This document shows positions 2,158-37,526 of a DNA stretch of 41,289 nucleotides, one piece after another. The notes below the pieces were generated by a model that was not told the DNA's origin, made no database searches, and saw only the letters and a program-made list of their open reading frames with translations. Location: contig JAOEUK010000014.1 of assembly GCA_028382965.1 (NCBI GenBank), forward strand, positions 1 to 41,289. The letters are read 5' to 3'. Both the position numbers and the translations under genes were made by a program. Source of the stretch: Candidatus Puniceispirillum sp. Its GTDB lineage: Bacteria > Pseudomonadota > Alphaproteobacteria > Puniceispirillales > Puniceispirillaceae. The number at the start of each line of letters is the position of its first letter. The first letter of the stretch is position 1.

Positions 2158-3195
2158 TTATACATCTTGAAATCGCCATCCTGCACTTGGAACACCCATA
2201 CCAAGATTATCAAGGCTCGCTTTCATATGGGGACTCATGGGCGCGGTTATTAATTTACCATCAGGAAGCTTTAACTGCCAGGCATGAAGATGCAGACGAC
2301 GCACAATCAGACCTCCCGGATGCGCATCATCACCGGCATATTTTCCATCCCCACAAATTGGGTTGCCAAGATACGCCATATGGGCACGCAATTGATGCGT
2401 TCTACCGGTAAGTGGCCGCAGGGCCACCAGGGCCATTTTACGCCCAGCATGGTCTAGCCGTCGATAAAGGGTTTGCGCACTTTGTCCATCTTCATGAACT
2501 TGCATTTTCTCACCAGCTTTCCCGCCAAGCTTCAAAATAGGTACGCGAACGCTTCCTGTTTCCGGTGGCAAACCAATCACCAATGCCAGATAGGTCTTTT
2601 CGAGCCGCTGTTTTTGGAAAGCCTCAGTCAAGCTACGTGCCGCCTCTATTGTTTTTGCCAGAAGGAGAACACCGCTTGTGTCTTTGTCAATTCGGTGCAC
2701 AAGCCGTAAACGATTACCCGCATCATCAATCATAGCTTTTAGCATCCCATCAATATGGTGGTGTGTGGCAGTGCCACCCTGAACCGCGAGACCACTTGGT
2801 TTATTCAAGGCAAGCCAGCCTTTTCCCTCAGCCAAAAACATATCATCAAGCTGTTGGCGCAATGAACTGCAAGCCACAATGCGCGGCGCGGCAACAAGGC
2901 GAGCCATTCCAATTTCGGGTATTATTGGCGGGAGCCTAACCGCCTGACCTTGTTTCAGTCTTGTTGCAGCTTTGGCTTTTGCGCCATCTAGCCTTATCAA
3001 ACCATTCCGCAACATTCTTTCGATCTGCCCCTGCCCAAGACCAGGGATCAGACGCCGCAAGAAACGGTCCAGCCTTGTACCATCTTCATAAGTAGGCACG
3101 CTCTCAAAGCGCCATATCTTATCGCCAGTTTTTGTCCCAGGTTTAGCTTTGGGTTTATTGGCAGCAAGACCTTTTATGGGGATTTTATTCTTCAT
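2158..3195 (-). CDS. rluC: 23S rRNA pseudouridine synthase, RluC/RluD family
   Basis: This 345-residue enzyme isomerises uridines in 23S rRNA. It has an N-terminal S4 RNA-binding domain (about residues 38-90, GTRLDRFLRRLIPGLGQGQ onward), then the catalytic domain with HRIDKDTSGVLLLAKT. The nucleophilic aspartate is Asp170 in the HRID motif. RPLTGRTHQLRAHMAYLG near 260-277 is the second family signature. The ATG at 3195 overlaps the crcB stop in an ATGA arrangement, so translation is probably coupled; a TTG two codons upstream is less likely. The crcB-rluC-atp12 order is typical of alphaproteobacteria. RluC is favoured over RluD from this context, not from a decisive residue. Confidence 0.93.
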   Translation of the reverse strand: MKNKIPIKGLAANKPKAKPGTKTGDKIWRFESVPTYEDGTRLDRFLRRLIPGLGQGQIERMLRNGLIRLDGAKAKAATRLKQGQAVRLPPIIPEIGMARLVAAPRIVACSSLRQQLDDMFLAEGKGWLALNKPSGLAVQGGTATHHHIDGMLKAMIDDAGNRLRLVHRIDKDTSGVLLLAKTIEAARSLTEAFQKQRLEKTYLALVIGLPPETGSVRVPILKLGGKAGEKMQVHEDGQSAQTLYRRLDHAGRKMALVALRPLTGRTHQLRAHMAYLGNPICGDGKYAGDDAHPGGLIVRRLHLHAWQLKLPDGKLITAPMSPHMKASLDNLGMGVPSAGWRFQDV

Positions 3196-3590
3196 TGCCA
3201 AACCCCGCTATACCGAACGGCTAGAAAGGCCATCCCAAAAGCTGCTAAAGACAACACCACCGAGGCTAACACATAAGCACCCGCCATGATGATACCCTTT
3301 GTTTGCCAAAGCTGGCCAGCATCCAGCGCAAAGCTGGAAAATGTGGTTAAGGCTCCTATCATTCCAACCGCTAAAAAGCCACGCCAAGCTTCTGGCAACA
3401 CTAGCCCTACAGAAATGCTGCTAGCAAGAAATCCCATAAGAGCTGATCCAACAATATTCACAACCAAGGTTGCCAACGGGCCGCTTATCCCAAAAACACC
3501 AGCCCCAATTACAAGGCTCACGCTATAGCGCATAATCGCCCCAATCGCACCGCCAGCCGCTACAGCTGCCATCATCGTCAGTGTTCCCAT
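3192..3590 (-). CDS. crcB: Fluoride ion channel CrcB/Fluc
   Basis: CrcB (Fluc) is a small inner-membrane channel, active as a dual-topology dimer, that exports fluoride. The 132-residue protein has four hydrophobic segments and the family motifs: GGAIGAIMRY at 13-22, TLVVNIVGS at 41-49 with the pore asparagine (Asn45), and GALTTFSSF at 79-87, where the phenylalanine box and the central sodium site lie. Length is typical. The ATG at 3590 begins 9 bp after the rarA stop, and the stop codon overlaps the rluC start. I see no fluoride riboswitch upstream, where rarA sequence runs directly into crcB. Confidence 0.95.
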   Translation of the reverse strand: MGTLTMMAAVAAGGAIGAIMRYSVSLVIGAGVFGISGPLATLVVNIVGSALMGFLASSISVGLVLPEAWRGFLAVGMIGALTTFSSFALDAGQLWQTKGIIMAGAYVLASVVLSLAAFGMAFLAVRYSGVWQ

Positions 3591-3599
3591 TGTTGTACT

Positions 3600-4898
3600 C
3601 TAATCCTTACCCGTTGTATCTGCCCGCAGCCGGTCCCAATAGGCCAGACGTTTAGCAACGTCGCGCTCATAACCCCGTTTAACCGGTTGATAGAACCTTT
3701 GCCGCACCATGCCATCGGGAAAACAATTCTGTCCAGAAAAGCCATCTGGATCGTTATGGTCATACGCATAATCAGCTCCATAGCCAAGCTGCTTCATCAA
3801 TTTTGTTGAGGCATTAAAAAGATGGGCGGTTGGGTTTAGGGATCCTGTTTTGGCCGCCACCTGGCTTGCAGCCTTGAACGCTACATAAGATGCGTTTGAT
3901 TTTGGGGCAGTAGCAAGATAAATCACCAATCCAGCAATCGCAAGATCACCTTCAGGGCTACCCAGCCGTTCATAGGCCTGCCAAGCCGTTATTGCACGGG
4001 TCTACGCCTCGGGTTCAGCTAGACCAATATCTTCAGCAGCAAAGGGGGTTAACCGCCGCAAGATATAATGGGGATCCTCTCCTCCTGCCAGCATTCGATC
4101 CAGCCAGTAAAGTCCGGCATCCGCATCAGAAGATCGCAACGTGTTGTGTAATGCCGACATCAAATTATGATGTTGATCTCCAGACCGATCAAATGCTGAC
4201 GCACGTCCAGCCAACATTTCCATCAATGCGATGCTATCAATCTGCCTCGATGCTGGCAGTTCAACCAGAAGACTTGCAATATTTAACAAATAACGCCCAT
4301 CCCCATCTGCCATCCCAAGAAGCGCATTACGCGCATCACTATCAATCGGCAAATTTTGACCAACATGCTCCTCAAGCCGCAACAGTAAAGTTTCTAAAGC
4401 CTTATGATCTAATCTACCCAGAACAAGTACCTGCACTCGTGACAACAAGGCGTCTTTCAGCGCAAATGAAGGATTTTCTGTGGTTGCCCCGATAAGGGTT
4501 ACTGTTCCATCTTCAACCCGCGGCAATAGCCCATCTTGCTGTGCCTTGTTGAAACGGTGAACTTCGTCAACGAAAAGCAGGTTACGGTGTCCTTGTTGAC
4601 GGGGCTGCTCTGCACGGGGAAAAAAATTCCGTAGTTGAGAAACTCCATCAAACACAGCAGATATTGGCTCAAAGACCATATCAACAGCATCAGCAAGAAG
4701 GCGAGCAATCGTAGTTTCCCCAGTGCCGGGCGGACCCCAGAAAATAATTGATCCCAGCTCACCTTTAGCAAGCATCAAACTCAGCTTTCCATGTGGGCCA
4801 AGAAGCTTTTCTTGTCCCACAATATCATCAAGCGTTTTTGGACGCAACAGCTCTGCTAGAGGAGACGCGGAAACAGTCTCAAGATCAGTTTCAATCAT
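3600..4898 (-). pseudogene. rarA: Replication-associated recombination protein A (RarA/MgsA), disrupted
   Basis: RarA is an AAA+ ATPase acting at stalled replication forks. The reading frame is recognisable over 432 codons: FWGPPGTGETT (Walker A, 53-63), [17 protein letters not shown] (Walker B, 107-123), GATTENPSF (sensor 1, 137-145), a DALLSR segment, and a C-terminal WQAYERLGSPEGDLAIA block with the family ending. Two lesions are visible. The invariant Walker A lysine is Glu61 (codon GAA at 4718-4716), and an in-frame TAG at 4004-4002 interrupts the protein after AEPEA. Sequence after the TAG still reads as good RarA in the same frame, so there is no frameshift. The first part alone (298 codons) would be a truncated, probably ATPase-dead product. 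Sequencing error could explain one lesion, less easily both. Confidence 0.88.
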
Positions 4899-5007: not shown

Positions 5008-5442
5008 TTAAGCCGCTACACCTGGCTCAGCATCAGTTTCTCCATCCATTTTAACCGGACCAGAGTCCTGGCCGCGCGCTTCTTCATCACGGTCAACAAG
5101 TTCGATAACCGCCATTGGTGCAGAATCACCATAACGAAAGCCAGCTTTAAGAACACGCGTGTAGCCACCTGCCCGTTCCTTGTATCGTGGCCCAAGAATG
5201 TCAAAAAGCTTTTTTGTCATACCTTCGTCACGAATGCGTGCAAAAGCCAGCCGGCGGGCATGTAAATCGCCACGCTTTCCAAGAGTGATCAGCCGTTCAA
5301 CAACAGGTCGCAATTCTTTTGCTTTAGGAAGAGTTGTGACAATCTGCTCATGCTTGATCAAAGCCTGAGCCATGTTACGGAACAACATTTGGCGATGTTG
5401 CGAGGTACGATTGAGTTTCCGACCAGCATTACGATGACGCAT
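5008..5442 (-). CDS. rplQ: 50S ribosomal protein L17
   Basis: L17 binds 23S rRNA near the exit-tunnel side of the large subunit. The 144-residue protein begins with [17 protein letters not shown], the family hallmark, followed by the conserved [19 protein letters not shown] segment. It is longer than the E. coli protein because of a charged C-terminal tail (about residues 115-144) of the kind seen in alphaproteobacteria. It is the last gene of the alpha operon, 42 bp after rpoA, and is followed by a strong terminator. Confidence 0.98.
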
Positions 5443-36758: not shown

Positions 36759-37526
36759 TTATTTTATTTGCCAGTAACCCATTGCTTGTAAGGCTTTTGT
36801 AGAGAAGTCAACAAGTTCTGATTTCTCTGCAAGAGCTCTCATCTTCGCCCTCAACCCAGCAGAACTCTGAGGCAAGAGTGGTGTAATAACGTAAGAGGCG
36901 CCTTTTGAAAAATTTTTTTCGAATATCAACAGAACCTCATCTATTTGATCATCAAGTGTGGTTTCAACAAGATTAAGATCCCTGGCCATACCAGTTATAA
37001 ATGTGCCACTGGCCTCTTCCCCTGACTGTTCAACGGCCAAAAGTTCATCGTCTAAGTCACGCAGGTAAGAGTTCACACGTGTCCATGAAGCAGCTATACC
37101 AGCCGCTCGTTCGACTGTTTCGCGGGCAGCAAACTCCAAACGAAACTTTTTAATAAAATAGCGTTGCCGCCGGTCAAATAAGGTGTTTTTACTAGTCGTC
37201 GACACAATGCGAGCCGAGGTATAATTTGATCCCTCAGGTTTGTCTTTTGCCTCATCATTCGAAGTCGAATTAGATCCAGATGAAGAAGGCAATACTTCGA
37301 GAGCTGAATTCTCTGAAACAGACCTATCTTCAACAGAAAAATTGTAATCGCTAGCAACCACGCTTCCAGATGGAGCTCCACTCTTTCCTCCAAATTGTGC
37401 ATAGGCAATGTCAGAAGAAAACAATGCTGTAAATAGTCCAATTAGCACCCACTGCGCACTAGAAAAATTGTGACAATCAGACTCATCTTTAGGACTTGAT
37501 TTAAGCGCCCAGCTCATTAAAGCCAT
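36759..37526 (-). CDS. Hypothetical exported protein
   Basis: I do not recognise this 255-residue protein. Residues 25-43 form a hydrophobic segment ending in AYA, consistent with a signal peptide cut before QFGG; a 24-residue N-terminal region precedes it, which is long for a signal peptide, so a later internal methionine start is not excluded. Residues 44-115 are Ser/Asn-rich and low in complexity, probably disordered. Residues 117-255 look helical, with FDRRQRYFIKKFRLEFAARE and acidic helices around 155-205, and one possible coiled-coil stretch. The stop codon abuts that of the convergent dehydrogenase. GGGGA lies about 11 nt before the ATG. Periplasmic or surface location is inferred. Confidence 0.75.
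   Translation of the reverse strand: MALMSWALKSSPKDESDCHNFSSAQWVLIGLFTALFSSDIAYAQFGGKSGAPSGSVVASDYNFSVEDRSVSENSALEVLPSSSGSNSTSNDEAKDKPEGSNYTSARIVSTTSKNTLFDRRQRYFIKKFRLEFAARETVERAAGIAASWTRVNSYLRDLDDELLAVEQSGEEASGTFITGMARDLNLVETTLDDQIDEVLLIFEKNFSKGASYVITPLLPQSSAGLRAKMRALAEKSELVDFSTKALQAMGYWQIK

Follow-up and report, generated by a model that had tools for sequence, protein, structure and literature searches.

The rarA (mgsA) gene of the Candidatus Puniceispirillum genome analysed here is very probably a genuine gene that has been inactivated recently, adding to several other losses of this gene in the order SAR116. rarA is a widespread DNA-repair gene. The window, i.e., the whole stretch of DNA that was analysed, comprises 41,289 nucleotides and represents the entire contig C6 of a genome (G000) of 2.38 Mb in 39 contigs, which is rated 99.63% complete. 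Within the window, rarA is located on the minus strand and flanked by rplQ and crcB. The relevant features are as follows.

3600-4898, minus strand: probable rarA (mgsA) pseudogene with 432 codons before the normal stop, a single in-frame TAG and no indels seen
4002-4898, minus strand: open frame of 298 amino acids ending at the TAG, with the AAA core and AAA_assoc_2; the MgsA C-terminal domain is represented only by its first 42 of 167 profile positions
4716-4718, minus strand: codon 61, Walker A lysine changed to glutamate, based on the sequence and on alignment across the order
4002-4004, minus strand: codon 299, in-frame TAG, based on the sequence and on comparison with relatives
4143-4145, minus strand: codon 252, K252N, in a column without variation among the sequences of the order taken as intact
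4044-4046, minus strand: codon 285, R285P, in a column without variation among the sequences of the order taken as intact
3192-3590, minus strand: crcB, intact neighbour, omega on the window's branch not raised
5008-5442, minus strand: rplQ, intact neighbour, omega on the window's branch not raised

The 298-residue open frame is matched by the profiles PF12002, PF16193 and AAA, identifying the gene product as RarA/MgsA, and the best solved relative of the frame is E. coli RarA (3pvs, E 1.7e-70), in which a lysine is aligned to codon 61. Of the domain set of this family (AAA, AAA_assoc_2, MgsA_C), the MgsA_C match is only partial, as it is restricted to profile positions 2-43 of 167. A degenerate DNA pattern for GPPGTG has a single match in the window, at rarA, and none of 100 shuffles yielded any. 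The PF12002 profile also produced only one match in the whole of G000, so that no second rarA copy was found by this search. Two features of a functional RarA/MgsA ATPase are lacking: the full-length frame with a complete MgsA C-terminal domain, which is interrupted by the TAG at codon 299, and the Walker A lysine, which is replaced by glutamate. The AAA motifs DEVH (Walker B), TENPSF and LLSR are unchanged. No frameshifts were seen along the 432 codons. Among 15 relatives compared, codon 299 is CAG or CAA in eight and GTG, CTG or TTG in seven; relative to intact orthologues, the frame of the window is disrupted.

A search of the order with PF12002 yielded matches in 69 of 136 genomes, and together with G014, which was reached via the neighbouring gene rluC, the comparison comprised 70 regions matching rarA. 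Codon 61 was covered in 67 of these regions and specifies lysine in 66, including four broken or suspect ones (G014, G019, G117 and G120); glutamate occurs only in the window. The exchange of the Walker A lysine reported by the initial annotation at 4716-4718 was thereby upheld: the codon reads TTC on the plus strand and GAA on the coding strand, resulting in the P-loop GPPGTGETT, and all of the 66 other covered regions retain lysine. Conservation of the glutamate in otherwise intact relatives, which would have pointed to functional divergence rather than decay, was found in 0 of 66.

K61E is not the only private change. In total, G000 departs from three of 101 order-invariant columns, namely by K61E, K252N and R285P (masked bases were left out of these counts). 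Of 64 sequences taken as intact, 42 show no such departure, 18 show one, three show two and one shows four; the latter, G114, is thus changed at more positions than G000 (4 of 105 columns). At the level of the genus, G000 changes 17 of 248 invariant columns, compared to 0-8 of 214-256 in 15 relatives from the genus or close to it. The initial annotation had regarded the stop codon and the Walker A change as more than one lesion, and K252N and R285P extend this count by two further private hits. As the four named lesions (K61E, the TAG, K252N and R285P) are split into two transitions and two transversions, they do not conform to a single pattern of damage. Most simply, the Walker A change is one of several hits that occurred after or around the end of selection.

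Selection was analysed by a codon model of the GY type (F3x4, 17 taxa) on a topology obtained from the concatenated neighbouring genes. On the terminal branch of the window, omega of rarA was 0.191 compared to 0.096 elsewhere (2dlnL 10.3; approximate 95% interval 0.13-0.29). Among the nine genes tested, rarA was the only one with a significant rise on this branch; omega was below background in seven of the eight neighbouring genes and higher, albeit not significantly, in adk. Selection is, hence, relaxed in rarA but not in its neighbours, with a weaker rise on rarA's own topology (omega 0.161, 2dlnL 5.7). An omega of 1 over the whole branch was rejected (2dlnL 42.6), indicating that the decay is recent and that selection acted along much of the branch. 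If the branch is composed of constrained and neutral time, the estimate (0.191-0.096)/(1-0.096) suggests that about 10% of it, in synonymous time, would have been neutral. Each of the 17 leaves was also tried as foreground, without correction. G010, which has a very short branch and in which no lesion was seen, reached an omega of 0.305 (2dlnL 6.25), G022 went down to 0.055 (2dlnL 5.24) and the decayed G014 showed 0.185 (2dlnL 3.8). As G010, in which no lesion was seen, rose as well and G022 fell, the branch test does not settle the matter by itself.

Assembly or sequencing errors in an intact rarA could also account for the lesions, which are all single-base substitutions and are read from the assembly alone, with one genome of the species; two other genomes of the order, G019 with just one stop and G127 with just one frame change, may represent such errors. 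For the window, however, errors are unlikely to be the explanation. They would have to place a stop and three order-invariant changes within 1.3 kb and alter 17 genus-invariant columns in a genome that is 99.63% complete by rating and assembled into 39 contigs, and none of the eight neighbours on both sides displays a significantly raised omega. Genuine decay, which the initial annotation had preferred over a single sequencing error, is thus supported by the private changes at invariant columns, the raised omega and the losses in relatives.

The initial annotation had also considered that the gene might persist as a repurposed, ATP-independent relic. In this case, the 298-residue fragment would work without ATP, e.g., by binding DNA or SSB as a scaffold. 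Its 298 codons do form an open frame, DEVH, TENPSF and LLSR are retained, and omega on the branch is still well below 1. However, when dN/dS was determined along the frame, both parts turned out to be relaxed on the window's branch, codons 1-298 (omega 0.172 vs. 0.089, 2dlnL 6.7) as well as codons 300-432 (0.242 vs. 0.105, 2dlnL 3.7), which does not favour an ATP-free function of the fragment. In addition, K252N and R285P alter invariant sites within the fragment itself, the C-terminal domain is mostly removed, and the glutamate is present in no relative examined. The proposed relic is, therefore, not supported and appears highly improbable. Read-through or recoding of the TAG, which would give full-length RarA with an altered P-loop, can practically be dismissed: the frame does run to its normal end without indels, but TAG is a working stop here that terminates 13 of 42 genes checked in the window, the codons beyond it are relaxed too, K61E would be left unexplained, and ARAGORN detected no suppressor tRNA in the window, the three tRNAs found there (for Trp, Tyr and Thr) having ordinary anticodons.

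Under the preferred reading of a recently inactivated gene, selection on rarA would have ended late in the lineage, leaving about 10% of the branch as neutral time under the above estimate, and substitutions would then have accumulated along the frame. In the available part of a study on E. coli (PMC8735627), the RarA variant K63R has lost ATP hydrolysis altogether and behaves like a rarA deletion in a ruvB background. By analogy with this literature, K61E is expected to inactivate the ATPase. If the gene still yielded a product, this protein of 298 residues would be devoid of most of the C-terminal domain and probably unable to hydrolyze ATP.

Several other losses of rarA were identified in the order. 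In G014, a member of the same genus, rarA is gone from about codon 137 by a deletion that reaches into crcB; the remaining part shows E112K in Walker B along with further changes at invariant positions and has kept the Walker A lysine. In the tree, G014 groups with G003, G007, G008, G010 and G013 and is separated from the lineage of the window. In none of these five species was a lesion seen; the rarA regions of two of them (G007 and G008) are truncated by contig ends. The position of G014 among species without a visible lesion and away from the window's lineage indicates that its decay was a separate event. A single inactivation common to G000 and G014 was rejected due to this placement, the retained lysine and the different lesions. 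In family f1, G117 and G120, both of genus g7, have several stops and frame changes in rarA. G113 contains only a stub, with codons 400-424 located beside rplQ and another frame lying between this remnant and crcB. In G019 (L151, contig C6 of that assembly; genome rated 97% complete), one in-frame stop at codon 156 represents a possible fresh pseudogene or an error, and the one frame change of G127, near codon 366, may be an error.

In family f4, PF12002 matched in 0 of 58 genomes, only six of which are at least 90% complete. At eight loci from six genomes of this family, no match to rarA was obtained beside rplQ, which is present in all of them, and rluC was found at seven. The gaps between rplQ and rluC in G042 and G059 did not contain a rarA remnant at E values up to 1. 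The six f4 genomes with a completeness of 90% or more all have RuvB_C, strongly indicating that the absence of rarA from this family is not due to general incompleteness. Absence was not accepted as loss in G005, G012, G121, G047 and G050, where rplQ was also not found, nor in G015 and G026, where contigs end beside or inside rarA.

Some further observations concern the surroundings of the locus. A frame of about 290 amino acids with a GIDWSG motif near its start occupies the place of rarA in G042 and G059 and lies beside the stub in G113 (L213, L214 and L211; between rplQ and rluC or crcB). The frames of f4 and G113 were judged by eye to be relatives, and the copy of G059 has no Pfam match. 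The crcB gene adjoining rarA in G006 (L137:9306-9720) contains stops in the matched frame and looks broken, that of G014 (L149:3010-3183) is cut, and no crcB match was found in the stretches of G001 and G002. Elsewhere in the window, an open reading frame of 255 amino acids (36759-37526, minus strand) is without a Pfam match.

With regard to tolerance of the loss, the available part of PMC8735627 states that strong effects of losing rarA in E. coli appear when ruvB is also lost, and that additional loss of recG or recQ renders the rarA ruvB double mutant inviable. G000 has matches for RuvB_C, for RecG (656 bits, 3 below the curated cut-off) and for the RQC domain of RecQ. Judging from E. coli genetics, the cell presumably copes thanks to the remaining, partly redundant RuvB, RecG and RecQ. 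RecQ of G000 is a protein of 606 amino acids (L198:3249-5069, contig C1). Within the order, the RQC domain has a patchy distribution (24 of 136 genomes). In genus g1, to which the window belongs, it was found only in G000 and in G005, whose assembly lacks the rarA region, and the only carrier in genus g10 is the stub-bearing G113. This distribution gave rise to the idea that RecQ permits the loss: RarA would be dispensable in SAR116 and lost many times, with patchy gain of RecQ helping to tip individual lineages, a proposal that we consider unlikely. RecQ of G000 is 74% identical to that of G005, which also fits vertical descent, and 69% identical to those of G113 (f1) and G056 (f2). The RecQ proteins of G113 and G056 are 76% identical across families, which hints at transfer, with moderate tree support for the pairing (71).

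RecQ as a general replacement of RarA was not upheld. In family f1, RecQ was found in two of six genomes with broken or stub rarA and in four of 49 with intact rarA (Fisher p 0.12); this count omits G005, G012, G015, G026 and G121, for which the state of rarA is undetermined, as well as the doubtful G127, and takes rows cut by contig ends and the partly N-masked G028 as intact. Across 242 genomes of the class, drawn at a completeness of at least 97%, the association is opposite in direction: RecQ occurs in four of 26 genomes without a RarA match, six of which were deduced from numbering gaps in the matched list, and in 121 of 216 with a match (p 0.0001, kinship ignored). Small genome size is the plainer correlate of RarA absence in the class, again with kinship ignored, as the RarA-less genomes for which a size was obtained (at least 20 of the 26) all range between 0.7 and 2.5 Mb.

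Taken by itself, a single broken copy is ordinary, and the case of the window is ordinary gene decay in a neat setting. The more useful result is the repeated loss across the order, ranging from a fresh stop to full absence, which provides natural knock-outs for comparing the partners of RarA. If a RecQ-tipped loss were true, it would provide natural evidence for the redundancy of RarA, RuvB, RecG and RecQ known from E. coli. The main text of a phylogenomic study on SAR116 (PMC8547437) contains 0 occurrences of rarA, and no report of bacterial rarA loss was found among the matching titles and abstracts examined, a small part of the broadest set.

The window's gene resembles the RarA/MgsA (WRNIP1, Mgs1) family of AAA+ ATPases in its sequence over 432 codons, in the arrangement of its domains and in Walker B as well as further AAA motifs, and its translation is 73-82% identical to the proteins of 11 congeners. 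It differs from the family in the stop after codon 298, the missing Walker A lysine and the two further altered invariant residues. With the E. coli rarA K63R allele, as described in the available part of PMC8735627, it shares a change of the Walker A lysine at a site matched by the 3pvs alignment; however, K63R is a laboratory arginine allele in an otherwise intact protein, whereas the window combines a natural glutamate with truncation. Gene loss within the same clade is also known from streamlined marine bacteria among the SAR116 subclades (PMC8547437, as far as the available part of that study goes). In contrast to that streamlined case, the genus of the window, with Candidatus Puniceispirillum, would belong to the less streamlined SAR116 subclade.
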